Source: Candidatus Aerophobota bacterium (lineage in GTDB: Bacteria; Aerophobota; Aerophobia; Aerophobales; B3-G15). From it: a DNA stretch of 18,134 nucleotides. Below, in pieces: positions 2,059 through 18,134 of the stretch. Each line of letters starts with the position of its first letter. Positions within the stretch are counted from its first letter, which is position 1. A program made the position numbers and the translations under genes. The notes beneath the pieces were generated by a model. It was given only the letters and a program-made list of their open reading frames with translations, did no database searches and was not told the DNA's origin. Where the stretch lies: contig JACUUP010000020.1 in the NCBI GenBank assembly GCA_014859225.1, forward strand, positions 1 through 18,134, written 5' to 3'.

Positions 2059-2135
2059 TTACTCTCCAATCATCTTCCTGACAATTTCTGCCAGGCTTTT
2101 AAATGCCTCATTGAGTTTCTCAGGATGAGAGGTTC
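2059..2135 (-). pseudogene. detached alaS 3' end (70-bp exact duplicate)
   Basis: Positions 2066-2135 are identical to 6993-7062, the last codons of alaS. Read on the minus strand they encode SHPEKLNEAFKSLAEIVRKMIG and end with GAG TAA, a natural-looking stop that differs from the MIGKS end of the full gene. Homology stops abruptly at 2135/7062, and an attC-like hairpin begins about 10 nt beyond. The fragment is thus a true gene end separated from its body. It sits directly upstream of hicBA-ydcF, whose relic also follows the full alaS. Confidence 0.85.
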
Positions 2136-3371: not shown

Positions 3372-3514
3372 CTTTGTAATATTATATTCTACCGCAATAA
3401 TAGGTCAAATTTTTGAGGATTTTCCTTCGGTGAGCTGATACCAGGTGAAAGGAAGATACAACGTGGCAAAAACTATGAGAAATGCTATCCCTGAAGTAAA
3501 TAAAGCTTTCCTTA
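3372..3514 (-). repeat. 143-bp direct repeat, copy B (truncated ydcF head plus promoter)
   Basis: Identical to 6786-6928 over 143 bp, same orientation, 3414 bp apart. Minus-strand content: codons for the YdcF N-terminal segment (about 89% identical in DNA to intact ydcF), then a premature stop (3405-3407) and about 30 further nt. The start codon is lost here because similarity ends at 3522, where IS-like sequence begins. Confidence 0.9.
3381..3408 (-). promoter_or_regulatory. sigma70-like promoter in repeat copy B
   Basis: On the minus strand TTGACC (3403-3408) and TATAAT (3381-3386) are spaced by 16 nt: a near-perfect -35 and a perfect -10. It points at the DUF5678-like/MNT/HEPN genes, with a leader of about 78 nt. 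The same promoter is in copy C, upstream of the SIR2 gene. Confidence 0.6.
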
Positions 3515-3520
3515 ATTTTC

Positions 3521-3745
3521 TGTTACGTAAAAGCGATTGTGTCCGCTTTACCCTTTAAGAGCTATAATGGCAAAAAAATCTTAAAGGAGAAATTATGAAG
3601 CGGACAAAACAGGAAAATAGGTTTATCTACTCTGAGGAAATTATTCACCGAGGTAAAATTTTGGACCTACTTATCAAACAGATGATAACTCAATCTCAGA
3701 CAGCTAAGGTAGCTTTGCATTTCAGACAACTTAAATTATATGAAG
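3521..3745 (+). mobile_element. left end of an insertion sequence with transposase fragment
   Basis: Similarity to repeat copies A and C stops at 3522, and TGTTACGTAAAAGCG follows like an IS end. TATAAT (3563-3568) and AAAGGAG (3583-3589) precede ATG 3595. About 45-50 codons then read like the N-terminal helix-turn-helix of ISNCY/IS481-type transposases (GKILDLLIKQMITQSQTAK...RQLKLYE). After about 3745 the frame only continues as the antisense of the PIN-partner gene, so the rest of the transposase and the right end are missing. The IS appears to have inserted into a ydcF head relic and then been cut off by the PIN module. The transposase assignment is by motif memory only. Confidence 0.45.
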
Positions 3746-3971: not shown

Positions 3972-4439
3972 TTACACCTCCTCCCCGAAGAAATCTTCGG
4001 GTGTTACAATTGTAGGAATAGGAATCCTTAACCTTGCATTAACCTCACGTATCATTTCTTGTGTTCCACGCTTATAAAGATGTCTGAGGTTCCATGTAAC
4101 CAAAAAATCCATCTCTCCAATGCTCGCCGAAGCAAGATGAAGAGCATCACCACGAGGTAAGCGCCTGTGAGATAAATACATATCTGCCAATTTAATAACT
4201 TCTTCCGTCACCTCCAGAACCTCAAAATCTTTCATCAGGTTCTCCAATGCTTTTCGTAGATTCACTTCCACTGTTACTCTGATTTCATCAAGAATCACTT
4301 CTGAGACGTAAACATCAAAATGAGGTAAAATATCTCTCCAAAATTGCCGGGTCAAATCCCTTAAATAAGGAGCCTCTTTCTGAAAATACATGTTTATAAC
4401 TGAACACTCCAAATAAAGCTTCGGTTTCTTTTGCATCAT
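3972..4439 (-). CDS. PIN-domain ribonuclease, VapC-like toxin
   Basis: A 155-residue PIN domain. The first strand carries YLECSVINMYF (9-19), where Glu replaces the usual Asp; I recall a PIN subfamily with YLET/YLEC at this place, so this is probably not a defect. Other landmarks are VSEVILDEI (acidic pair), PRGDALHLASA with the third acidic residue, and FLVTWNLRHL with the conserved Asn. The C-terminal IVTPEDFF is also typical. Such proteins are metal-dependent RNases acting as toxins. It starts at ATG 4439 or the next ATG (4436) and is followed 2 nt later by its partner. The attC-like hairpin copy 2 begins 25 nt upstream. Confidence 0.8.
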   Translation of the reverse strand: MMQKKPKLYLECSVINMYFQKEAPYLRDLTRQFWRDILPHFDVYVSEVILDEIRVTVEVNLRKALENLMKDFEVLEVTEEVIKLADMYLSHRRLPRGDALHLASASIGEMDFLVTWNLRHLYKRGTQEMIREVNARLRIPIPTIVTPEDFFGEEV

Positions 4440-5154: not shown

Positions 5155-6636
5155 TCACAAACCTTCATAGATAAAAGAGCACAAGAAAAAAGTTGCAACA
5201 AACTTGAGCAAGATCCTAATTTCCTCCTGGGCAGATAAAATGGTACGTCGGGTATCTTGATATAATTCGTGGAAGTCTTTGATAATCTTTGATTCATAAA
5301 ATTTAAGGTACAAATAATTATCTATTCTGCCAAAGTCAAAATCAAAATCCCGCATCAGCTCTTCGGTGAGTCCTAATAATAATTGTTCCTTTTCATCATT
5401 TCCATTTAAAATCGAGAACATGCGAAGGACTTCACTAGCAATTGTTCTACAAGAATTGAAAATCGGAATATAGTATGCTTCGGCAGATGTTATGTTTTCA
5501 TTTTTCTTTAAGATGCCTGTATTTACAATTTCTTCAAAAATGTTCTTTATAGTAAATTGAGGCATTTTTTTGCAATAGTTATCTATCCTTTTACACATAA
5601 GAAGTCCCTCTAAGCTAAACATGCCCCTTGTTTTGATAGCATATATTATTGTCTCAAGTTTTAACAAATTCTCGATTGAATCCAAGGCACCCCATTGGCC
5701 AAAATGGTTCCTGAACTTATGTCGCGTGATTGTAGGATAACGTTCCTTATGCTTCTTATGGAGATAATCCGCGAGTTTAACTAAAAAGTTATCAGCGTTA
5801 GCACTAACAAATATACAATTATTTTTTAGAATGCTTTTAGCAAATTTGAACATGTCATTATTGCTTGGGAAATCTTTATTAGTATCCACCCAAAATATTT
5901 TCCTGCCTTCAGTTAATACCAACTTTTTTAGTACCTTTTGAAAGTCAGGATCAGGACAGCTAAAACCTATGATTAGTAAAGCAGCAGAGTCGTTAAAGAT
6001 TTTCTCTAAAAGATCTTGTTTTTCTTTTTCAAATTGCTGGACAGTTTCAAATGTAGGTCTGATAGTAGCAGGATAACTTATTGTTCCATGGGGTTTGATC
6101 AGCAATGGCTTTCGAGGTAATGCACCTTTTCTAAATTCAATTTCTTCAGCTACTTTCTGGAAAATGCTCTTGCTTCTTACCCATTCATAGCTATCTTCGC
6201 CTATTTCATCATCGAGAGAAACTTCCAAACACTCATCAAAGTTGAAAGAAATCACATTGTCAACTAATCTATGGCTAATAAAGTGTGAAATGATTTCATA
6301 GCCCAAAGGGGGGATTACACTAATTTCCGATTTCGGTCTAATTCCTTGCTGTATTAAAAAAAGGTCGATAGGTTTGTTATAAATTTTACTATAAATTGAT
6401 AGTAGTTCTTCTAAACTGCATTCGGAAGGTTCCTTGTTTATATGAGAAAGTGTGTTGACTCGGAGTTGCTTTTGTCCTCCCTGCTCTAATTTTAGGTTCT
6501 CGAGCAATTTTTGTTTTAGTACCGGCACTCCAAATCTATTATAATCGGAGGCTCCGGAACCAACAACAATACTCACCTTGCCTGCTACAAATTGGTCAAC
6601 TAAACTATTCAAGATATTAATATCAATGTCCACCAT
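5155..6636 (-). CDS. SIR2-domain protein, probable NAD-consuming defence effector
   Basis: A 493-residue protein with an N-terminal SIR2-like domain. VSIVVGSGAS (21-30) is the Rossmann NAD loop, SFNFDE (130-135) matches the conserved (T/S)xNxD motif, KPHG (181-184) has the catalytic histidine, and IIGFSCPDPDF (222-232) the second glycine-serine loop. SIR2 domains of this divergent type, lacking the sirtuin zinc module, act in anti-phage systems by degrading NAD. Residues about 300-493 are helical and unassigned, probably a sensor or oligomerisation region. The gene starts at ATG 6636 behind GGAGAGG. The repeat-borne promoter at 6795-6822 reads into it with a leader of about 150 nt. All key residues are present. 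The trigger and partner are unknown; the next gene is broken. Confidence 0.75.
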   Translation of the reverse strand: MVDIDINILNSLVDQFVAGKVSIVVGSGASDYNRFGVPVLKQKLLENLKLEQGGQKQLRVNTLSHINKEPSECSLEELLSIYSKIYNKPIDLFLIQQGIRPKSEISVIPPLGYEIISHFISHRLVDNVISFNFDECLEVSLDDEIGEDSYEWVRSKSIFQKVAEEIEFRKGALPRKPLLIKPHGTISYPATIRPTFETVQQFEKEKQDLLEKIFNDSAALLIIGFSCPDPDFQKVLKKLVLTEGRKIFWVDTNKDFPSNNDMFKFAKSILKNNCIFVSANADNFLVKLADYLHKKHKERYPTITRHKFRNHFGQWGALDSIENLLKLETIIYAIKTRGMFSLEGLLMCKRIDNYCKKMPQFTIKNIFEEIVNTGILKKNENITSAEAYYIPIFNSCRTIASEVLRMFSILNGNDEKEQLLLGLTEELMRDFDFDFGRIDNYLYLKFYESKIIKDFHELYQDTRRTILSAQEEIRILLKFVATFFLCSFIYEGL

Positions 6637-6785: not shown

Positions 6786-6928
6786 CTTTGTAATATTATA
6801 TTCTACCGCAATAATAGGTCAAATTTTTGAGGATTTTCCTTCGGTGAGCTGATACCAGGTGAAAGGAAGATACAACGTGGCAAAAACTATGAGAAATGCT
6901 ATCCCTGAAGTAAATAAAGCTTTCCTTA
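6786..6928 (-). repeat. 143-bp direct repeat, copy C
   Basis: Identical to 3372-3514. Here the similarity to the intact ydcF/hicA junction continues to about 6960, so this copy is the more complete parent type. It carries the same promoter. Confidence 0.9.
6795..6822 (-). promoter_or_regulatory. sigma70-like promoter in repeat copy C, reading toward SIR2
   Basis: TTGACC (6817-6822), 16 nt, TATAAT (6795-6800) on the minus strand. It is downstream of alaS and upstream of the SIR2 gene, and no other promoter-like pair as good lies between it and ATG 6636. Confidence 0.6.
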
Positions 6929-6960
6929 CCTTTCTGCTCATAGCAGCTCTTCTAACTTAT
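6819..6960 (-). pseudogene. hicA-tail/ydcF-head relic downstream of alaS
   Basis: Minus strand: GTTAGAAGAGCTGCTATGA keeps the last hicA codons (LEELL) and the same ATGA overlap with a ydcF start as at 1579-1600. The ydcF frame then runs 40 codons (MSRKVRKALFTSGIAFLIVF...TEGKSSKI) and stops at 6819-6821. It matches intact YdcF for about the first 33 residues. The rest of ydcF, most of hicA and all of hicB are gone. A 40-residue membrane peptide could still be made, but nothing suggests it is functional. Confidence 0.8.
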
Positions 6961-6982: not shown

Positions 6983-9601
6983 TTAGCTCTTCCCAATCAT
7001 CTTCCTGACAATTTCTGCCAGGCTTTTAAATGCCTCATTGAGTTTCTCAGGATGAGAGGTTCCTCCCTGAGCAAAATCCCATCTTCCCCCTCCGCTTCCT
7101 CCCGTTAAAGAAGAGAGTTCTTTTATCAATTTATCTGCTGGCAGGTCTTTTCGCTTAGAAGCAACAACTATGAAGGCTTTTTTCTCATCTGAGGAGGCAA
7201 GCGCAACCACAGCTTCCCCTAACTTATCTTTTAGCCTCTCGGCAGCCTGGCGCAAAGCTTTAGATGAGATATCCTGAACGATTCCCGCACACACTTTAAT
7301 CCCTTCAATATTTTGTGCCTGGGATGCTATTTCCTGAATCCTATTTTCTAAAAAACCCTCCTGTATCTTATCCAGTTTATTCTTTAAATCAGCAATATGT
7401 TTATCTTTTTCTTTGAGCTTATCAATAATTTCATCCTCTGAAACAGAGATGACCTCTGTTATATTTTCCAATTTATCGCTTTTCTCCTGCAACCACAAAA
7501 AAGCTTTCTCTCCACAGAAGGCTTCAATCCTGCGAATTCCCGCGGCAACCCCACTCTCGGATACAATCTGGAATAGCCCTATCTGACCACTTCTAAGAAG
7601 ATGGGTTCCTCCACACACCTCCATACTAAAATCATCCACCTTTACCACCCTAACCTTCTCTTTGTACTTTTCCTCAAAAAGTGCAATTGCCCCCAGGGTA
7701 TGTGCTTCCTCAAGACTCATCTCGTAAATTTCAACAGTTAAATCTTCTCTTATCTTTCTATTAACCAAAAGGCAAATGTCTTTTAAAGCTTTTTTTTCCA
7801 CGGGCGAAGGGTAAGTAAAATCAAAGCGCAACCTCTCCTCATCTACTAAAGAACCGCTCTGTTTCACATCTTCTCTTAGAATACTACGCAGGGCTGCATG
7901 CAGAAGATGGGTAGAGGTGTGGGAACGGGCAATAGATAGTCTTTTTTCCTCATCAACCTGCATTTTTACCTCATCTTTTCTCTTAAATTCACCTTGAAGA
8001 ACCTTTATATGATGCAAGATAACATCTCCCCTCCTCTGGACATAAAGCACCCTACCTTTTGCTTTAGCACCCACTATTTCTCCTGTATCTGATATTTGAC
8101 CACCACCTTCAGGGTAAAAGGGTGTCCTGGAAACTACCAGTTCTCCTTCTTCGCCTTCTTCTATCTGCTCGTGTATTTTTTTATTTTTAATTATAGCAAG
8201 GATAATCCCTTTCAGGCTAACTTTTTCATAACCTGCAAATATAGCTCCCTTTCCCCCGCATGAGCTTTTCTCTATTTCCCTGATTAAGGAAGGGTCATAT
8301 TCCTCGTATATTCCTTTAACAAAACTTAGCCGCGCTTTTCTTCTTTGCTCTTCCATGCAGCGTGTAAAACCTTCCTCATCTAACTTTAATCCGGCTTCAA
8401 AAGCTATCTCCTGCGTAAGCTCCAGAGGAAACCCGTAAGTATCATACATCCGGAAAGCAGTATCTCCAGATAAAATTTTCTTGCCAGAACTTTTTAAGTC
8501 TCTAATCTCATCCTCCAGGATAGATAATCCCCTGGAAAGAGTAATTTGAAAGCTCTCCTCTTCTCTTTTTATTATCTCCTGGCACTTATTTTGTTTTTTT
8601 TCAATTTCAGGATAAGACTTTCCCATCATTTGATTAACTATCAACACCCCTTGATAAAGAAACGGCTCATTTAATCCCAGTCTTCTTCCGTAGCGAGAAG
8701 CTCTACGCAAAACTCTTCTGACAACATATCCCCTACCCGCATTTGAAGGTAAAATTCCTTCCCCTAATAAAAAGACAAGCCCGCGCAGGTGATCACTTAT
8801 CACCCTTAAAGCCTTTTTATCGCAGACAGATGCAGGAGAAATTTCTTCCACCCAACTGTAAAGAGGAAGAAAAAGGTCAGTGTGATAATCATCAACTACC
8901 CCCTGAAGAACTGTAGCCATCCTTTCAAGTCCCATTCCTGTATCTACATTTTTATCAGGTAAGGGGGAAAGTTTGCCTGATAAGTCCCGGTTATACTGGA
9001 TGAATACAAGATTCCATATCTCCACCCATCTTGAACACTTATTACACCCGGGCTCACATCCATTAAGACAACCCATTTTCTCTCCCCGGTCAAAAAAAAT
9101 CTCTGTATCAGGACCACAGGGACCAACTTCTGCTGCTGACCAAAAATTATCTTCCTCACCTTTTCTCACTATCTTTGATGCAGGAAAACCTAACTTTTTC
9201 CATATAGAAGCTGTTTGTTCATCTTCTTTAAATATAGTTACCCATAACCTATTCTGTGCTATATCAAACTCTCCTGCAACAAGCTCCAGAGCCCACTTGC
9301 AAGCCTCATCCTTAAAATAATCTCCGAAGGAGAAGTTACCCAGCATTTCAAAGAAGGTGTGATGGTAAGAGGTTTCTCCCACTTTTTCCAGATCATTGGT
9401 GCGAAAACACAGCTGACAGGAAGTGATACGAGATGCGGGTGGGTTTTTTTCTCCCAGGAAAAATGCCTTAAAGGGAACCATACCTGCTATGGTAAAAAGA
9501 AGTCCTTCCTCCTCTGTTGCAAGAGGGGCAGATGGTTGCACAAGATGCCCTTTGTTCTTAAAAAATTTTAAGAATTTAGCTCTTATCTCATCACCCTGCA
9601 T
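6983..9601 (-). CDS. alaS: alanyl-tRNA synthetase
   Basis: An 872-residue protein, full length for AlaRS, which charges tRNA-Ala and removes mischarged serine and glycine. The class II catalytic core opens with EIRAKFLKFFKNKGH and includes SYHHTFFEMLGNFSFGDYFK (78-97) and VDTGMGLERMATVLQG. The editing domain has HTSTH (561-565) and CGGTH (663-667), the zinc-binding quartet. The C-terminal DHHA1-type domain carries GGSGGGRWDFAQGG (about 833-846). The start ATG 9601 has a GGGAGG ribosome site, 24 nt after priA. It ends the operon. The last 70 coding bases are duplicated at 2066-2135. Confidence 0.97.
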   Translation of the reverse strand: MQGDEIRAKFLKFFKNKGHLVQPSAPLATEEEGLLFTIAGMVPFKAFFLGEKNPPASRITSCQLCFRTNDLEKVGETSYHHTFFEMLGNFSFGDYFKDEACKWALELVAGEFDIAQNRLWVTIFKEDEQTASIWKKLGFPASKIVRKGEEDNFWSAAEVGPCGPDTEIFFDRGEKMGCLNGCEPGCNKCSRWVEIWNLVFIQYNRDLSGKLSPLPDKNVDTGMGLERMATVLQGVVDDYHTDLFLPLYSWVEEISPASVCDKKALRVISDHLRGLVFLLGEGILPSNAGRGYVVRRVLRRASRYGRRLGLNEPFLYQGVLIVNQMMGKSYPEIEKKQNKCQEIIKREEESFQITLSRGLSILEDEIRDLKSSGKKILSGDTAFRMYDTYGFPLELTQEIAFEAGLKLDEEGFTRCMEEQRRKARLSFVKGIYEEYDPSLIREIEKSSCGGKGAIFAGYEKVSLKGIILAIIKNKKIHEQIEEGEEGELVVSRTPFYPEGGGQISDTGEIVGAKAKGRVLYVQRRGDVILHHIKVLQGEFKRKDEVKMQVDEEKRLSIARSHTSTHLLHAALRSILREDVKQSGSLVDEERLRFDFTYPSPVEKKALKDICLLVNRKIREDLTVEIYEMSLEEAHTLGAIALFEEKYKEKVRVVKVDDFSMEVCGGTHLLRSGQIGLFQIVSESGVAAGIRRIEAFCGEKAFLWLQEKSDKLENITEVISVSEDEIIDKLKEKDKHIADLKNKLDKIQEGFLENRIQEIASQAQNIEGIKVCAGIVQDISSKALRQAAERLKDKLGEAVVALASSDEKKAFIVVASKRKDLPADKLIKELSSLTGGSGGGRWDFAQGGTSHPEKLNEAFKSLAEIVRKMIGKS

Positions 9602-9625: not shown

Positions 9626-11518
9626 CTACGTTATAATTAAAGGGTCAACATCAATCCCCAACTTAACCGAACCTCTCATTGTCCGGGGTATTGCTTTTTT
9701 TATACTCTCTTCTAAAAACTTTGTCTTTGTGCCATCATCTCTCAGTATGATATGGTAACGGTACTGCCCCTTTATTTGGAGAAAAGGACAGGGAGAAGGA
9801 CCTAAAAAATCCAGATTTTTTTTCTCAAGTTCTTCCGCTATTTTTTCACATTTATCTTTAACTTTGTTTTTTGTCCTGCCCTCAAAAAGTATGCGTATCC
9901 ATCTTTGAAAAGGGGGATATCCAAGAGTTTCTCTGATTTTGAGCTCTTCTGAATAAAATTCTTCACCCTCTTTATTTAAAACATAGTAAGTTGGATTGTA
10001 AGTTTGAACTATGAGAAAACTTCCCTTCTTCTGACTGTGGCGGATTTTATTTAGAAGATGAAAGGTGCGCTCAGTTGCTCTAAAATCAGGCACATTTAAA
10101 AGGACATCCAGAAGTATAACTCCCACAACATTAACCATTGAAATTATCTCCTCTTTTATTAAAAGTTGTGTTCCCACCAGAATATCAACTTCTTTGTTCT
10201 TTATCCTTTGAGAAATAAGATGGGGGGACAACTTAAACACGTCAAGGTCAAATCTTTCCACTCTCGCTGCGGGAAATATTTTTTTTGCCTCAAGTTCCAC
10301 CCGCTGGGTTCCCCAGCCTATTTTTCTTACACTTATCCCCTCACAAAAAGGACAAGTCAAGGGAGCCTCTTTTTGAAAGCCACACCAGTGACAGAGCATC
10401 TCTTTCTTAAGATGAAAGCTAAGGCTTATGTTGCAGTTGGGACATCGTATAACTTCTCCACAATCGCTGCATAAAAGAAAATTTGCATAGCCTCTGCGTG
10501 GAACAAAAACTAATACGGGAAATCCTCTTTCAAGAGCCTCTTTTATTTTTTCCTGAAGAAGGGAGGAGAAAATTCTATTTTTCTTTTTTTCCTTTTTAAC
10601 ATCAACTATAAAAAAGGATGAGGGGCGATGCATATCTGTTGTTAGATGAGAGGAGGTTTTTTCCTTTTCTGGTATGTTAAATAACCTGTATACCCCCTTT
10701 TGTGCCTTATACCAGGAGTCAAGAGAGGGAGAGCCGCTCACCAGGTATACGGGAAAATTTTCAATTTCTCCTCTCTTTGTAGCTACCTCACGAACACCGT
10801 ACTTAGGAGTTTCTTTTTGCTTATAATCTATACTCTGTTCCTCATCAATCAAAGTTAAACCAATATTGGGAAGAGGGGAAAAAACCACCGATCTTGTCCC
10901 AACAACCACATCTACCTCGCCTTTTTTCATAGCCAGCCAGCGACGATACCTTTCCCTGGGGGGGAGTTTACTGTGAAAAATAACACTTTTTACCCCCCAT
11001 TTTTCTATTTTCTCTTCAAATGCGCAAGTTAAACTTATCTCTGGCACCAGAATTAAAACCTGCTTGTTAATTTTTTTATTTTCCCTTATCCAGGATAGAA
11101 AAAGTTCTATTTTTTGCTCTCCCGGATTAATAAGATAGACCTCTTTTTTGAGGGTGGAGTTTTCCTGTGGGTGAGAAAGACTAAAATCAATCTTTTCCTC
11201 ATAGGGGAAAGGGTGGGGAAAAACTGAGTGTAGCGCCTGGCCCAGGGAACAACCGTAATAATCAGTTATCCAGCTGGCAAGCTGAAAAAGAGAGCTACTA
11301 AAAGGAGAAAATCTGTCAAAAAAACCAATCATCTCTTTCAACTTTCCCTCAGGTTTTTTGGAAGATACGTTTACCACAAAACCTACCTTTTCTTTTTTTC
11401 CCAGAGGAACGACTACTCTTTGACCTATCTCAGGCTTTTCCTTAAAATCAGAAGATAATCTGTACCAGAAAAATTTTTCTGTAGGCAGATTAAAAGCAAC
11501 TTGTATATAGCTTTTCAT
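9626..11518 (-). CDS. priA: PriA-type primosomal protein with degenerate helicase motifs
   Basis: A 630-residue protein, short of the usual about 730. PriA reloads the replicative helicase at stalled forks. Present: the 3'-DNA-binding domain (QVAFNLPTEKFFWYRL...GQRVVVPLG), ILVPEISLT (155-163), RERYRRW, VVGTRSVVFSPL, eight zinc cysteines (350, 353, 359, 362, 376, 379, 389, 392), ILVGTQLL and PDFRATERTFHLL. Missing: the GxTGSGKT Walker A is INPGEQKIELF (about 130-140), DEEH is DEEQ (225-228), and AGRAGR is replaced by RHSQKKG (493-499). ATP-driven unwinding is therefore doubtful, while DNA and partner binding may persist. I start at ATG 11518 because the family homology begins there. The TTG 48 nt upstream lies in a -35-like box. 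Confidence 0.9.
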   Translation of the reverse strand: MKSYIQVAFNLPTEKFFWYRLSSDFKEKPEIGQRVVVPLGKKEKVGFVVNVSSKKPEGKLKEMIGFFDRFSPFSSSLFQLASWITDYYGCSLGQALHSVFPHPFPYEEKIDFSLSHPQENSTLKKEVYLINPGEQKIELFLSWIRENKKINKQVLILVPEISLTCAFEEKIEKWGVKSVIFHSKLPPRERYRRWLAMKKGEVDVVVGTRSVVFSPLPNIGLTLIDEEQSIDYKQKETPKYGVREVATKRGEIENFPVYLVSGSPSLDSWYKAQKGVYRLFNIPEKEKTSSHLTTDMHRPSSFFIVDVKKEKKKNRIFSSLLQEKIKEALERGFPVLVFVPRRGYANFLLCSDCGEVIRCPNCNISLSFHLKKEMLCHWCGFQKEAPLTCPFCEGISVRKIGWGTQRVELEAKKIFPAARVERFDLDVFKLSPHLISQRIKNKEVDILVGTQLLIKEEIISMVNVVGVILLDVLLNVPDFRATERTFHLLNKIRHSQKKGSFLIVQTYNPTYYVLNKEGEEFYSEELKIRETLGYPPFQRWIRILFEGRTKNKVKDKCEKIAEELEKKNLDFLGPSPCPFLQIKGQYRYHIILRDDGTKTKFLEESIKKAIPRTMRGSVKLGIDVDPLIIT

Positions 11519-11590: not shown

Positions 11591-13348
11591 TTAATCTTCC
11601 CTGATTTCAATATGAAGCTCTCTTAGCTGCTCCTCCTCAACCGGTGAAGGAGCCTGTGTCATAAGACATACAGCTTTTTGGGTCTTAGGAAAGGGAATTA
11701 CTTCCCGGATAGACTTTTCTCCAGCTAATATCATCACCAGACGATCAAGACCCATGGCGATTCCACCATGAGGAGGGGCCCCCAGAGAAAGAGCATCTAA
11801 CAAAAAGCCAAATTTTTCCCGAGCCCTCACCTCATCCATACCAAGCAGCTTAAATATTTTTTCCTGCAGCTCTTTTTTATGTATTCTTATACTCCCTCCC
11901 CCAATCTCCTGTCCATTAAGAACAATATCGTAGGCTCTTGATGTTACCTCATCTGGATTAGTTTCCAGAATTGGAATATTCTCCTCGCAGGGACTTGTGA
12001 AGGGGTGGTGAACAGAGATAAGTCTACCTGTCTCATTCCTCTCAAATAAAGGAAAATCTACTATCCAGACAAAATTGAATTTCTCCTCAGGGATAAAATT
12101 AAATTTTCTGGCAAGAAAGATGCGAAGCTGTCCCAGAGCCTTGCAAACAGTATCTTTGCTGCCGGCAACCATAAAAAGAACATCTCCTTTCTTAGCCCCT
12201 GAGGCCTGTGCCATTTTATCCAGCGTAGATGAGTCATAAAATTTAGCTAAGGGTGATTTTACCTTCTCTGCGAAAATAACCCAGGCTAAATCTGGGGCCC
12301 CACGATTGGTAGCCCAGAGTTTTAATTCATCCAGCTCCCTGCGAGAAAGATTAACCGGTCCCGGCAAAGTTATTCCCTTTACACATCCCCCATTTTTAAC
12401 AATCTCTTGAAAGGAGCTGAAGCTACCTTCTTTCCCTAAGAAGGAAAGTTCTTTAAGTTCCATATCAAAACGTGTATCCGGCTTATCAGACCCATATCGC
12501 TCCATTGCCTCCTCGTAGCTTAAACTAAAAAAAGGAGTGGGAATAGTAATGCCTTTTGTCTTTTCAAAGACATGCTTTAACATTCCCTCTATTAGTTTAA
12601 ATATATCCTGCTCATCTATAAAGGAAAGCTCAATATCAATTTGAGTGTGTTCTGGTTGACGGTCAGCACGAAGGTCCTCATCCCGGAAACATTTAACAAT
12701 TTGAAAGTATCTCTCAAATCCAGCTATCATAATTATCTGTTTAAAAAGTTGAGGTGATTGAGGAAGAGCATAAAACTCACCTGGATTCAAACGAGAGGGG
12801 ACAAGATAGTCCCGAGCCCCTTCGGGGGTGCTTTTTGTCAAAAAAGGAGTTTCTATTTCTATAAACCCCTGCCTGTCCAGAAACTCACGAACAGCTTTGG
12901 TCACCTCATAACGAAGTTGCATATTTCTCTGCATCACGGGGCGTCTAAGGTCAATGTAGCGATATTTAAGCCTTACCTCCTCATTTAGCTCAACCTCATC
13001 ATCTGTGCTAAAGGGAAGAGGTAGGGAACTGTTCAATACATCAACTTTTTCCACCTGAATTTCAATCTCCCCTGTTGATATTTTAGGATTTACCGAGTCA
13101 GCAGGACGAAGTAAAACTTTTCCCCCTGCCATAATCACCCATCCTTCTCTTAAGCTGTGAGCTATAGAATGGGTATCTTTTGCCACCCGGGGATCAAAGG
13201 CGAGCTGTACAACTCCCGATCTATCTCCAAGATCTACAAATATAAGATTTCCGTGGTCTCTTCTTTTTTTAATCCAGCCGGCAACAATAACTTTAGAGCC
13301 TGCATCCTTTCTGTTCAGTCTTCCACAAAAGCAGTTTCTTTTCGTCAT
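11591..13348 (-). CDS. aspS: aspartyl-tRNA synthetase
   Basis: A 585-residue bacterial-type AspRS. The N-terminal OB-fold anticodon domain (VIVAGWIKKRRDHGNLIFVDLGDRSG, 20-45) is followed by the class II core. The flipping-loop region is KSTPEGARDYLVP (172-184), motif 2 is FRDEDLRADRQPEHTQIDIE (221-240), and motif 3 is GGIAMGLDRLVMIL. The GAD insertion domain lies between. The length is standard. Motif 2 has His in RQPEHTQ where many bacteria have Phe. Whether it also charges tRNA-Asn cannot be read from the sequence; no gatCAB genes are in view. The ATG overlaps the hisS stop (ATGA at 13345-13348), as in many bacteria with a hisS-aspS pair. Confidence 0.97.
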   Translation of the reverse strand: MTKRNCFCGRLNRKDAGSKVIVAGWIKKRRDHGNLIFVDLGDRSGVVQLAFDPRVAKDTHSIAHSLREGWVIMAGGKVLLRPADSVNPKISTGEIEIQVEKVDVLNSSLPLPFSTDDEVELNEEVRLKYRYIDLRRPVMQRNMQLRYEVTKAVREFLDRQGFIEIETPFLTKSTPEGARDYLVPSRLNPGEFYALPQSPQLFKQIIMIAGFERYFQIVKCFRDEDLRADRQPEHTQIDIELSFIDEQDIFKLIEGMLKHVFEKTKGITIPTPFFSLSYEEAMERYGSDKPDTRFDMELKELSFLGKEGSFSSFQEIVKNGGCVKGITLPGPVNLSRRELDELKLWATNRGAPDLAWVIFAEKVKSPLAKFYDSSTLDKMAQASGAKKGDVLFMVAGSKDTVCKALGQLRIFLARKFNFIPEEKFNFVWIVDFPLFERNETGRLISVHHPFTSPCEENIPILETNPDEVTSRAYDIVLNGQEIGGGSIRIHKKELQEKIFKLLGMDEVRAREKFGFLLDALSLGAPPHGGIAMGLDRLVMILAGEKSIREVIPFPKTQKAVCLMTQAPSPVEEEQLRELHIEIRED

Positions 13349-14619
13349 GAGCTTGCATCACCTTTCAAAAAATTGCTAAATACCTCAAATTCTTCAGTTT
13401 CTATTTCCTGCTGCATCCCTGAGTGCATATTTTTAAGGATGAATTTTCCTTTTCTTATTTCCCCTTCTCCAATTATCAATACCCAGGAAAAATTTTCCCT
13501 GTTAGCCTGTTTTAGCTGAGATGAAAGACCCTTATTGGTAAGATTGATTTTTACCGCAATACCCTGGGAGCGGATGATGCTGGCAACCTGTATTGCTTCC
13601 TCTACACTTTTCTCCCCAATTGTAGCCATAAAAACACCTTGAGGCGCAGGCTTTGATAAATCTACTCCAGCTTTTTCCAGGCTAAAAAGTAGGCGTTCCA
13701 CACCAATGGCAAAACCAGTAGCAGGAGTGGGGGGACCTCCTAATTGTTCTACTAAATTATCGTATCTTCCCCCGGCACATACAGCGTCCTGGGAGCCAAG
13801 ATAAGAAGATATAATCTCAAAAATAGTGCGGGTGTAATAATCAAGACCCCTCACAAGGTAAGGATTTATTGTATGAGCAATCTTTAACCTGCAAAGGCCC
13901 CCTGTTACCTTATCAAAATGTTCCTGGCAGGATGAACAGGTGAAATCTTGTATCCTGGGGGCTTTCTCTAAAACAGCCCTGCAGGTAGCACTCTTGCAAT
14001 CTAAAATGCGCAGTGGATTGTAGCGAAAACGCCTCCTGCAAGTTGAACAAAGCACATCTAAATATTTTCCCAGATAGACCTTCAACTCCTCTATATATTT
14101 ATACCTGCATTTTTTGCAGCCGATACTGTTAACTTGAACCTGTATATTGTCAAGACCCATCCCTTTCAAGAAATCGTGTGCCATCTCAATAATTTCTACA
14201 TCAAGCCAGGGGCTCTCCTCACCAAAACATTCAACACCAATCTGATAAAACTCCCGCAAGCGACCTGCTTGAGGTCTTTCGTATCTAAACATGGGACCTG
14301 CATAATAAACCTTCCAATTTTTTTCTTTAGCATAAATTTTGTGTTCCACGTAAGCTCTAACAATCCCGGCAGTGCCTTCAGGTCTTAAAGAAATGCTTCT
14401 TCCCCCTTTATCTTTGAACGTGTACATCTGTTTCCCCACATCAGTCTCCTGACCCACGCTGCGCAGAAAAAGCTCTGTTTTCTCAAAAGTAGGCACCATT
14501 ATCTTTTTATATCCATACAAGGAAAAAAAATTGCCCGCCTTTTTCTCAATTTCCTCATAATAAGAGGCTCTGGGGAAAAGTATATCCTCCACCCCTTTTG
14601 GTGCGTTTATCATAGCCAT
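13345..14619 (-). CDS. hisS: histidyl-tRNA synthetase
   Basis: A 424-residue class II HisRS. Motif 2 is GPMFRYERPQAGRLREFYQIG (108-128). The histidine-specific motifs are LVRGLDYYTRT (255-265) and GGRYDNL (283-289). Motif 3 is ATGFAIGVERL (300-310). The C-terminal anticodon domain includes GVFMATIG and GLSSQLKQANRENF. The insertion domain has four cysteine pairs (168/171, 191/194, 208/213, 228/231), so it probably binds zinc; I recall Cys-rich insertions in some bacterial HisRS. Two starts compete: ATG 14619, close behind mltG, and ATG 14613, which has AAGGA at a better 6-nt spacing. MltG ends 6 nt upstream. Confidence 0.97.
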   Translation of the reverse strand: MAMINAPKGVEDILFPRASYYEEIEKKAGNFFSLYGYKKIMVPTFEKTELFLRSVGQETDVGKQMYTFKDKGGRSISLRPEGTAGIVRAYVEHKIYAKEKNWKVYYAGPMFRYERPQAGRLREFYQIGVECFGEESPWLDVEIIEMAHDFLKGMGLDNIQVQVNSIGCKKCRYKYIEELKVYLGKYLDVLCSTCRRRFRYNPLRILDCKSATCRAVLEKAPRIQDFTCSSCQEHFDKVTGGLCRLKIAHTINPYLVRGLDYYTRTIFEIISSYLGSQDAVCAGGRYDNLVEQLGGPPTPATGFAIGVERLLFSLEKAGVDLSKPAPQGVFMATIGEKSVEEAIQVASIIRSQGIAVKINLTNKGLSSQLKQANRENFSWVLIIGEGEIRKGKFILKNMHSGMQQEIETEEFEVFSNFLKGDASS

Positions 14620-14625
14620 TCCTTT

Positions 14626-15627
14626 TTATCCCCCCTGATATCCCAGTTGATATTTTTCAATTGCTTGTAAATGTTCCTGGTATGTTGTGCTGAACTCGTG
14701 TGTCCCATCCTTCCTGGACACAAAATAAAGATAATTAACCTGCGCCGGCTCTAAAGCTGCCTTAATGCTATCTACCCCCGGACTACATATAGGGCCAGGA
14801 GGAAGACCTGAATAAATATAGGTATTATAAGGAGAAGGATAAATAAGCATCTGTGTATCTAACCTCACATTAAAACTACCCAGAGCATATTTAACAGTAG
14901 GGTCAGCTCTGAGCCTCATTCCTCTATTTAGCCTGTTATAAAAAACTCCTGCTATCATTGGTCTCTCAAAACTCACCACAGCCTCTTTTTCAATAATGGA
15001 TGCGAGAATGATGAGCTCATGCAAAGATAGTGCATTATCTCTACTCATTTTGTGATATAAGGGAAGAATAGTCTGTTCAAATTTTGTTAAAAACTTACCC
15101 ACTACTCCAACGGGATTCTCTTCCAAAACAAAATCATAAGTGTCGGGAAATAGATATCCTTCCAGGCTATCTTTTGCATCAAGCCAGGGAAATCTCTGGT
15201 AAAAATATTCCGCATTATCTACGAGCTGGAGAAAATTTTGCCTATCCACTATCTGCTTCTCAGCAAGAAGATTAGCCACTTCCCATTTGGGAAGTCCTTC
15301 AGGGAAAGTTACTCTGTAAGTTTTAACCTTCCCTTTAAGCAGTTTATCTACCACGGAAAAAAAGGTGGGACTGGTAAATTCATAAACCCCAGCCTTGAGA
15401 CTGGTATCGTATTTTAAGATTTTTACCATCAGGGAGAAAAAATAAGGATTGGTTATGATTTTGTTTTCCTTTAGTATGTATGAGATCTGGGTTGATGTAA
15501 CACCCGGAGGTATCCTAATCAATACTTTTTTTCTGCTAAAGGAAGGTATAAAAAAATAGGAAACTATTAGAATTATTAAAAAAAACAAGGCCAGCTTCCC
15601 TGTTTTTTTAAGAAAACCGTCCTTCAT
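14626..15627 (-). CDS. mltG: endolytic murein transglycosylase MltG
   Basis: A 333-residue YceG/MltG protein. It cleaves nascent glycan strands at the outer face of the inner membrane and so limits chain length. One membrane segment spans about 11-29. A LysM-like part (VLIRIPPGVTSTQISYILKENKII, 35-58) follows, then the catalytic domain with SLEGYLFPDTYDF (154-166) and ASIIEKEA (209-216), which holds the catalytic glutamate. RLRADPTVKYALG and YNTYIYSGLPPGPICSPG are the other hallmark stretches. Length and motifs are complete. It lies 8 nt downstream of ruvX, a very common bacterial neighbour pair. Confidence 0.95.
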   Translation of the reverse strand: MKDGFLKKTGKLALFFLIILIVSYFFIPSFSRKKVLIRIPPGVTSTQISYILKENKIITNPYFFSLMVKILKYDTSLKAGVYEFTSPTFFSVVDKLLKGKVKTYRVTFPEGLPKWEVANLLAEKQIVDRQNFLQLVDNAEYFYQRFPWLDAKDSLEGYLFPDTYDFVLEENPVGVVGKFLTKFEQTILPLYHKMSRDNALSLHELIILASIIEKEAVVSFERPMIAGVFYNRLNRGMRLRADPTVKYALGSFNVRLDTQMLIYPSPYNTYIYSGLPPGPICSPGVDSIKAALEPAQVNYLYFVSRKDGTHEFSTTYQEHLQAIEKYQLGYQGG

Positions 15628-15635
15628 TATACCAC

Positions 15636-16091
15636 CTATTCTTTTTTAACTTTATCTTTTTTTAATAAATCAAGATAGTTTTGAAGCAGTATAGTGGCTG
15701 CCACTTTATCTTTTAATTTTTTCCTCTTCTGGATACTCAAGCCTCCCTCTTTTAAAAATCTTTCTGCCGCTAAACTGGTAAACCTCTCATCGGCAAAGAT
15801 AACGGGAATATTTACGCTCTTTTCAAGCAGCTTTGCAAACTCTCTCACCTTTTCTGCCTGTCTTCCCTCTCTTCCCTTAAGGTCAAGTGGCATCCCGACA
15901 ACTATAATCCCTGCCTCCTTGGATAAAACCAATTCTTTTATGCGATTAACTTTTTCCTGGATTGAGGAGGAGAGGAATTTAATAGAACAGATTCCCTGCG
16001 CTATGGTTCGGGAGGAATCAGAAACAGCCACTCCAATGCTTCTATCACCTACATCCAAACACAATACTCTCTTCAAGGAGCTAATTTCCAC
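15636..16091 (-). CDS. ruvX: RuvX/YqgF Holliday junction resolvase-like nuclease
   Basis: A 151-residue RNase H-fold protein. VLCLDVGDRSIGVAVSD (9-25) carries the first catalytic Asp. GMPLDLKGREGRQAEKV, FADERFTSLAAERFL (acidic residue) and KDKVAATILLQNYLD (final Asp) complete the family pattern. The family is linked to 16S rRNA 5'-end maturation, and a resolvase role was proposed first. The start at 16091 overlaps the zinc-ribbon gene by 11 nt, implying coupling. Standard length, no anomalies. Confidence 0.93.
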   Translation of the reverse strand: MEISSLKRVLCLDVGDRSIGVAVSDSSRTIAQGICSIKFLSSSIQEKVNRIKELVLSKEAGIIVVGMPLDLKGREGRQAEKVREFAKLLEKSVNIPVIFADERFTSLAAERFLKEGGLSIQKRKKLKDKVAATILLQNYLDLLKKDKVKKE

Positions 16092-16797
16092 CTTTTTTGC
16101 CTAAATATGTGATTCTACTGCAACTTTCACAGTAAACAATCTGACCCCGTCTCATCTGACCAACTAAAGATGGAGAGACTGTCACATTACATCCACCACA
16201 CACTCCATTTTCAACCATGGCTACAGCAAGACCACTTTTAACCCTGCGAAGCTGCTCATACTGGCTATAATAAACCTTACTAATGCGGGAGGATAAACTC
16301 TCTCTTTCTTTTGTCAGGCTCTGTTCATCTTTCTCCAGATTAACTAACCTTTTTTCTAATTTTTCTTTTTCTTTTGTTAATCTCTCTCTATCTATCTGAA
16401 ATTGCTTTTCTAAGGAAGGTATTAATCTAAAAAGTTCGTCCTCTCTTTCCATTAACTGAAGAAGGATATCCTCTTCCCTATCTTTGCTTTTCTTGAGAGT
16501 AGCTATTTCCCTCTCTAAGGCTTCAAATTCATCCCTGGACTTAACTTTGTATTTCTCATCTTCATGTCTTTGCAATTTCTCATCAACATCCTCAACTTCA
16601 AGTTCTTTTCCCATTTTATTTTTACGAGTATTTTTCAGCTCTTCTTTTTTTTTCAGAATATCATCCTGCAGCGTTTTCAATTTTTCCTCTGTCTGCTTAA
16701 GCTCAGAAGTCAAAACCTCTTTTTGTTTTATACCCTCTTCAATTCTTACATCTACATCCTGCAATTTAACTAACAGTTTTATCTGCTCCTCATCCAT
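16081..16797 (-). CDS. coiled-coil C4 zinc-ribbon protein (DUF164/zf-RING_7 type)
   Basis: A 238-residue protein. Residues about 10-180 form a long charged coiled coil (repeated K/E heptads such as LEKRLVNLEKDEQSLTKERESL). The C-terminal zinc ribbon is VCGGCNVTVSPSLVGQMRRGQIVYCESC, with two CxxC pairs. This is the widespread bacterial family with pfam02591; some members are proposed to bind nucleic acid or ribosomes, but no general function is settled. It is the first protein gene after the tRNA cluster, 40 nt from the tRNA-Val CCA end, with no terminator between. The ribosome site is weak. Confidence 0.85.
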   Translation of the reverse strand: MDEEQIKLLVKLQDVDVRIEEGIKQKEVLTSELKQTEEKLKTLQDDILKKKEELKNTRKNKMGKELEVEDVDEKLQRHEDEKYKVKSRDEFEALEREIATLKKSKDREEDILLQLMEREDELFRLIPSLEKQFQIDRERLTKEKEKLEKRLVNLEKDEQSLTKERESLSSRISKVYYSQYEQLRRVKSGLAVAMVENGVCGGCNVTVSPSLVGQMRRGQIVYCESCSRITYLGKKGGN

Positions 16798-17404: not shown

Positions 17405-18134
17405 TTATAAAGAGAGTAAGAATATCTCGGCCGGGATGAAGTATAATAAGCTTTTGCCAATTCTTTCTTGACCATAAAGATTTTTGGTAATAAGAAATGC
17501 CTTATCTTTTCTAAATTTTCTCATGAAATTCTTCAAATTGTCCTTATCTTTTTCCAGTATCCGCTTTTTGTATTTTGCCTCCACCGGGATAATTTCTTTA
17601 TCGGAGATAACAAAATCAACCTCATCGTTTGGTTTCCAATAGTTGAGATTAGCATAGTTTTTCTTACAAAATAAAAAGAGAGCAATCCCAATAACATTTT
17701 CAAATATGAAGCCCAGATTATCCTCTTTTACCTCATAGTCTTTAAGAATAGCGTTTCTCAAACCCTGGTCTATAACCAGAAATTTCTTTTTTGCTTTTAT
17801 CTGTTCTTTAATACCCGCAAACTTTAGGATCTCAGCTATAAGATAGGAAGACTTAAGAAACTCTATGTAATTAATAAGGGTTGAGCGGTCAAGTTTCACA
17901 ACGTCATTTATCGTCTCGTAGGAGAGCAATTTACTCTGGTGGGCAGCGATAAAAGCAAATACTTGCTCAAGGATTTTTACATTTCTTATCCCGAAAAGAC
18001 TTGCTATGTCCTCATAGATTGCCTTCTTGGGAATATCTTCAATTAACATTGTAAACCAACGCAGCCTTGTGTCAAACTGTTTTTTTATTTCAAACCATTC
18101 AGGAAATCCTCCTACGCTTAAATATTCTTTAAAA
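17405..18134 (-). CDS. DUF4143-type ATPase, C-terminal part (cut by the window edge)
   Basis: The frame stays open from the stop at 17405 to the window end, so the 5' part is outside. An in-frame ATG at 18049 is internal, because the preceding codons (FKEYLSVGGFPEWFEIKK) match the end of the AAA+ domain in this family. Next come a winged-helix part (YETINDVVKLDRSTLINYIEFLKSSYLI) and a C-terminal DUF4143 nuclease-like fold with FENVIGIALF, NYWKPNDEVDFVI and IPVEAKYKKR. The last two resemble the D-ExK core of PD-(D/E)xK nucleases. The role of these ATPases is unknown, though they are often variable accessory genes. The visible part has no disruption. Confidence 0.8.
   Translation of the reverse strand, partial: FKEYLSVGGFPEWFEIKKQFDTRLRWFTMLIEDIPKKAIYEDIASLFGIRNVKILEQVFAFIAAHQSKLLSYETINDVVKLDRSTLINYIEFLKSSYLIAEILKFAGIKEQIKAKKKFLVIDQGLRNAILKDYEVKEDNLGFIFENVIGIALFLFCKKNYANLNYWKPNDEVDFVISDKEIIPVEAKYKKRILEKDKDNLKNFMRKFRKDKAFLITKNLYGQERIGKSLLYFIPAEIFLLSL

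Follow-up and report, generated by a model that had tools for sequence, protein, structure and literature searches.

The PriA homolog encoded on the reverse strand of the window (the whole 18,134-nucleotide stretch of DNA analyzed here) is very probably a pseudohelicase that would mark replication forks and recruit DnaB and DciA without unwinding DNA, as judged from its sequence and by analogy with a characterized PriA. Across the phylum to which the window belongs, the whole PriA chain is under purifying selection without its motor. The data are best read as in the original prediction, which saw a loader or adaptor in place of a helicase; this view has an experimental precedent in the PriA of Deinococcus radiodurans (PMC4504706).

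The window protein matches the TIGR00595 equivalog model of NCBIfam at 428 bits (cut-off 230) and falls below the threshold of the narrower PRK05580 models. The Pfam domains PriA_3primeBD, Zn_ribbon_PriA (PF18319) and PriA_C all score above their cut-offs (80.8 bits for PF17764, whose cut-off is 22.7), and phmmer relates residues 133-626 to solved PriA chains with an E-value of about 1e-68. The Pfam DEAD match begins at profile position 39, beyond the P-loop. A single-sequence AlphaFold model of the protein has a mean pLDDT of 32.5, too low for structural conclusions. The features of the gene and its operon are collected in Table 1.

Table 1. The priA gene of the window, its domains and motor motifs, and the neighboring operon genes
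Feature	Position in window	Strand	Remarks
priA gene, very probable pseudohelicase	9626..11518	-	630 aa; ATG start at 11518, stop at 9626; frame intact
3' DNA-binding domain (3'BD), kept	11216..11503	-	residues 6-101; PF17764, 80.8-84.5 bits
Motif I / Walker A site, P-loop absent	11099..11134	-	residues 129-140; upstream winged-helix segment missing
Motif II, DEEQ for DEEH	10835..10846	-	residues 225-228
Motif III, VSGSPS-type for GSATPS	10724..10741	-	residues 260-265
Zinc-binding cysteine-rich region	10343..10471	-	residues 350-392; eight Cys kept, 14/14 order members
Motif V, GTQLLIKEEIIS for GTQMxxKGHDFP	10139..10174	-	residues 449-460
Motif VI, arginine finger AGRAGR gone	10019..10063	-	residues 486-500; local 3-residue deletion
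PriA C-terminal domain, kept	9641..9913	-	residues 536-626; PF18074, 63.8 bits
alaS, next gene of conserved operon	6983..9601	-	
aspS, gene preceding priA in conserved operon	11591..13348	-	homology across order
hisS, mltG, ruvX and CT398-like zinc-ribbon coiled-coil gene, upstream part of operon	13345..16797	-	

The gene order zinc-ribbon - ruvX - mltG - hisS - aspS - priA - alaS is kept across the order wherever the contigs allow a view, with small insertions in a few genomes. The earlier description of an intact frame in a housekeeping operon therefore holds, both for the open frame of 630 residues and for the conserved ruvX-mltG-hisS-aspS-priA-alaS arrangement. Downstream, an exact copy of the final 70 bp or so of alaS lies about 4.9 kb from the gene end (window 2066-2135 and 6993-7062), and a 151-bp repeat (99%) lies close by (window 3372-3522 and 6786-6936). 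The stretch between the repeats encodes an MNT/HEPN pair (2284-2987), a PIN protein (3972-4439) and a SIR2-like protein (5155-6636), and resembles an island of defense or toxin-antitoxin genes that has inserted at the alaS 3' end; no integrase was seen. Close to the contig end, a frame of 214 aa (positions 17405-18049) matches DUF4143, which forms the C-terminal portion of an ATPase family.

The motor motifs were compared with those of 51 motor-intact PriAs from lineages outside the window's phylum. The Walker A sequence of the intact proteins, HGVTGSGKTEVY, aligns with N--PGEQKIELF in the window protein, so that GVTGSGKTE has become PGEQKIE, and a direct reading of the whole sequence finds no GxxxxGK[ST] elsewhere in the chain. 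The predicted loss of Walker A is thus confirmed, as is that of AGRAGR, since KIRHSQKK stands in place of QVAGRAGRG in motif VI. Three further losses had escaped the original prediction: motif V, where KGHDFPNV is aligned with KEEIISMV (KGHDF to KEEII); the Gly, Ala and Thr of motif III; and the segment carrying the winged-helix domain. Between the 3'BD and motif I, the site of the winged helix, the window protein has 27 residues against a median of 177 in intact PriAs, although 7 of the 51 intact PriAs also have no more than 58 residues there. The change in motif II was read correctly as an alteration of DEEH, but its inactivating value was overestimated: DEEQ also occurs in four PriAs (G017, G026, G063 and G069), each with an intact Walker A and GR[AS]GR, and is therefore weak evidence of loss; on its own, this change would not abolish activity. 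In the remaining members of the order motif II is changed further, mostly to EEEE.

The losses cluster in the motifs for ATP use and coupling. Among 109 columns conserved in at least 85% of the 51 motor-intact PriAs, 70 are kept in the window's order, 26 are partly kept and 13 are lost; mean retention is 38% in motifs I, II, III, V and VI versus 87% elsewhere (Mann-Whitney, p = 2e-8), which argues against chance. The 70 columns kept, together with the PF18319 and PF17764 matches, bear out the claim that the zinc site, the DNA-binding domain and most of the helicase framework persist. Conservation in 13 or 14 of the order's 14 readable PriAs extends to the eight zinc cysteines, to aromatic and basic residues that follow motif II (Y232, K233, Y240, R243) and to several aromatic positions of the 3'BD (W83, Y87, Y88). 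In addition, several residues are common to the order and rare in other PriAs (E228, E456, E457, I458 and W540), so that the former active site has become fixed in a different, conserved form and does not drift freely.

The sample of the window's phylum comprises 17 genomes, all from one order, and the helicase region of PriA is readable in 14 of them. Two others, G005 (72% complete) and G016 (69% complete), yielded no priA, and in G013 the gene is cut by a contig end. None of the 14 readable PriAs retains the P-loop, the glycine of motif V or the arginine pattern of motif VI. The closest relatives (62.9% and 59.6% identity) show the same motif loss and not normal motifs, and the chain has no Walker A elsewhere, so that neither of the two refuting conditions named with the original prediction holds. 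No second PriA was found in any of the 17 genomes. Values of dN/dS between pairs within the order range from 0.15 to 0.27 (NG86; the distant pairs are rough, as they rest on large dS), and both former helicase lobes are constrained no less than the DNA-binding parts. Purifying selection on a motor-less protein thus agrees with the view that this is not decay, while the further claim that the loss itself was selected is too strong.

The closest functional parallel is found in Deinococcus-Thermus, where motifs I and II of PriA are degraded and helicase function is absent. The D. radiodurans protein has no measurable ATPase or helicase activity, yet binds DnaB, single-stranded DNA and forks, the last with an apparent Kd of 108.5 nM (PMC4504706). 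Primosome assembly also persists in E. coli when the ATPase of PriA is dead (PMC4504706). As befits a pseudohelicase of the D. radiodurans type, the window PriA lacks Walker motifs, has an intact frame and is the sole PriA found in its genome; fork and DnaB binding, kept in D. radiodurans, are presumed by analogy. The two differ in extent of erosion: Walker A is still recognizable in Deinococcus, with Lys replaced by Arg, whereas the window PriA retains neither the P-loop nor motifs V and VI, nor the winged-helix segment. The lineages are different, and the motor losses look separate.

To our knowledge, actinobacterial PriA has no usable helicase motifs. This type (NCBIfam NF011451-NF011455, PRK14873) is divergent, as is the window PriA, and has been described as 'smaller and very divergent' (PMC1193525). 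However, the window protein scores 494 bits with NF004066, an ordinary PriA model, versus 144 bits with the best actinobacterial-type model, and so does not look actinobacterial by descent. It is homologous to the ordinary PriA helicases of E. coli and K. pneumoniae (6dcr, 4nl4, 8fak) over the 3'BD and residues 133-626, and differs from them in lacking Walker A, motif V, the arginine fingers and the winged helix. Around K. pneumoniae R697, a published SSB-contact residue (PMC6618814), the local alignment of the window protein is too poor to support any claim of conservation.

A pseudohelicase of this kind would use the 3'BD, the zinc region and the C-terminal domain to bind branched DNA where forks have stalled or undergone repair, possibly more weakly or differently than other PriAs because the winged-helix segment is missing. 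It would then act as a docking platform and recruit the replicative helicase DnaB, probably together with DciA, a loader that is not an ATPase. DnaB occurs in 15 and DciA in 16 of the 17 phylum genomes, and in Caulobacter PriA and DciA have been proposed to act together (PMC9825169). No DnaC/DnaI-like loader evidently common to the phylum emerges from the IstB-family matches in the 17 genomes, which consist of likely insertion-sequence IstB, fragments, and weak matches sized like DnaA or other AAA+ proteins. PriA itself would hydrolyze no ATP and would leave the lagging-strand arm closed; where fork unwinding is needed, it would be carried out by another enzyme, or be avoided.

It is possible, if rather unlikely, that unwinding has been split off in this way, with RecG or a UvrD/PcrA/Rep-type helicase opening the fork and PriA coupling it to reloading, an arrangement compatible with the main explanation. 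UvrD_C proteins are present in 15 of the 17 genomes and full-length RecG in several other families of the order. However, the window's family (genomes G000, the window's own, G001 and G002) yielded no RecG, Mfd-type matches alone being seen there, and no tie to any helicase, whether physical or genetic, was observed. The absence of RecG from this family is likely and not certain, since the three genomes are incomplete.

A more radical alternative, which we consider improbable, is that PriA has left replication restart for a new role, perhaps structural or regulatory and tied to the tRNA-synthetase operon. The loss of motor and winged helix, the predominance of translation genes in the operon and the order-wide E456, E457, I458 and W540 would fit such a change, but the zinc region, the 3'BD, the C-terminal domain and the residues following motif II show the conservation of functional PriAs, the search revealed no other PriA that could perform restart, and operon membership by itself says little. 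Still less credible is a cryptic ATPase, in which a rebuilt site binds and hydrolyzes nucleotide, for example by way of the partly conserved Lys in PGEQK/EEEK: a Lys does occupy the Walker A Lys column in 57% of order members, and motif II almost always retains its EE, but nothing is left of the glycine-rich loop, the Thr or the arginine fingers, no conserved set has taken their place, and the Lys-to-Arg change by itself abolishes the E. coli ATPase (PMC4504706). There is practically no chance that the gene reflects an error of sequencing or assembly, a frameshift artefact or a pseudogene in decay, since, although the window's genome is a draft (1.8 Mb in 273 contigs, 91% complete, one PriA detectable), 13 other genomes from several families share the motif loss with intact frames and purifying selection extends along the entire chain, which refutes this reading.

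The pseudohelicase interpretation can be placed in a wider setting by 56 PriAs from beyond the window's phylum, 51 of which keep their motor motifs. In three genomes (G061, G029 and G035; loci L123, L124 and L125), the sole detected PriA lacks Walker A and other motor motifs. These proteins occupy other places in the tree and sit on long branches, so independent motor loss in their lineages is likely and not proven. The two sampled genomes of another phylum, G053 and G079, have a PriA that keeps GPPR[TS]GKT, and in which ATP binding may therefore survive, but that lacks the motif V KG and AGRxGR. In this protein GEE replaces KGHD in motif V, motif II reads DGEE or ESEE, and a short linker lies where the winged helix normally sits. 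In a PriA tree built without the motif columns these two genomes join the window's order with support of 94/88, which, for PriA, makes their phylum the probable sister lineage; the alaS tree speaks neither for nor against this. Their PriA likely represents an intermediate state. It suggests stepwise decay of the motor and, if the two phyla are indeed sisters, loss of the coupling motifs before the P-loop. In both genomes recG lies a short distance upstream of priA on the same strand (G053 contig C117, L049; G079 contig C81, L135).

Two candidate correlates of motor loss were rejected. DciA is present in all five motif-poor outside genomes, but 42 of the 51 genomes with an intact PriA also carry it, and no association can be claimed. 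RecG is likewise found in all five and in 38 of the 51 others; the loss of RecG in the window's family is therefore separate from motor loss. With three more lineages devoid of the motifs and one phylum devoid of part of them among 56 outside PriAs, motor loss looks recurrent and not peculiar to Deinococcus.

PriA pseudohelicases were already known, and the window's phylum is a further case, with heavier erosion and a plausible intermediate. We found no report of one beyond Deinococcus-Thermus in the literature searched, most subscription journals lying outside its coverage. As a tentative proposal, it is quite possible that the whole phylum restarts replication without a PriA motor, and the window's family also without RecG. 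In that case PriA, stripped down to a scaffold for zinc and fork binding, would pass DnaB on to DciA, and neither of the two restart proteins would hydrolyze ATP; the sister lineage would then trace the route, motifs V and VI going first and the P-loop later. ATPase-dead E. coli mutants still assemble primosomes, and yet most bacteria retain the motifs. The window's phylum has been without a PriA motor for a long time, and the half-degraded PriAs of G053 and G079 make the order of motif loss testable.
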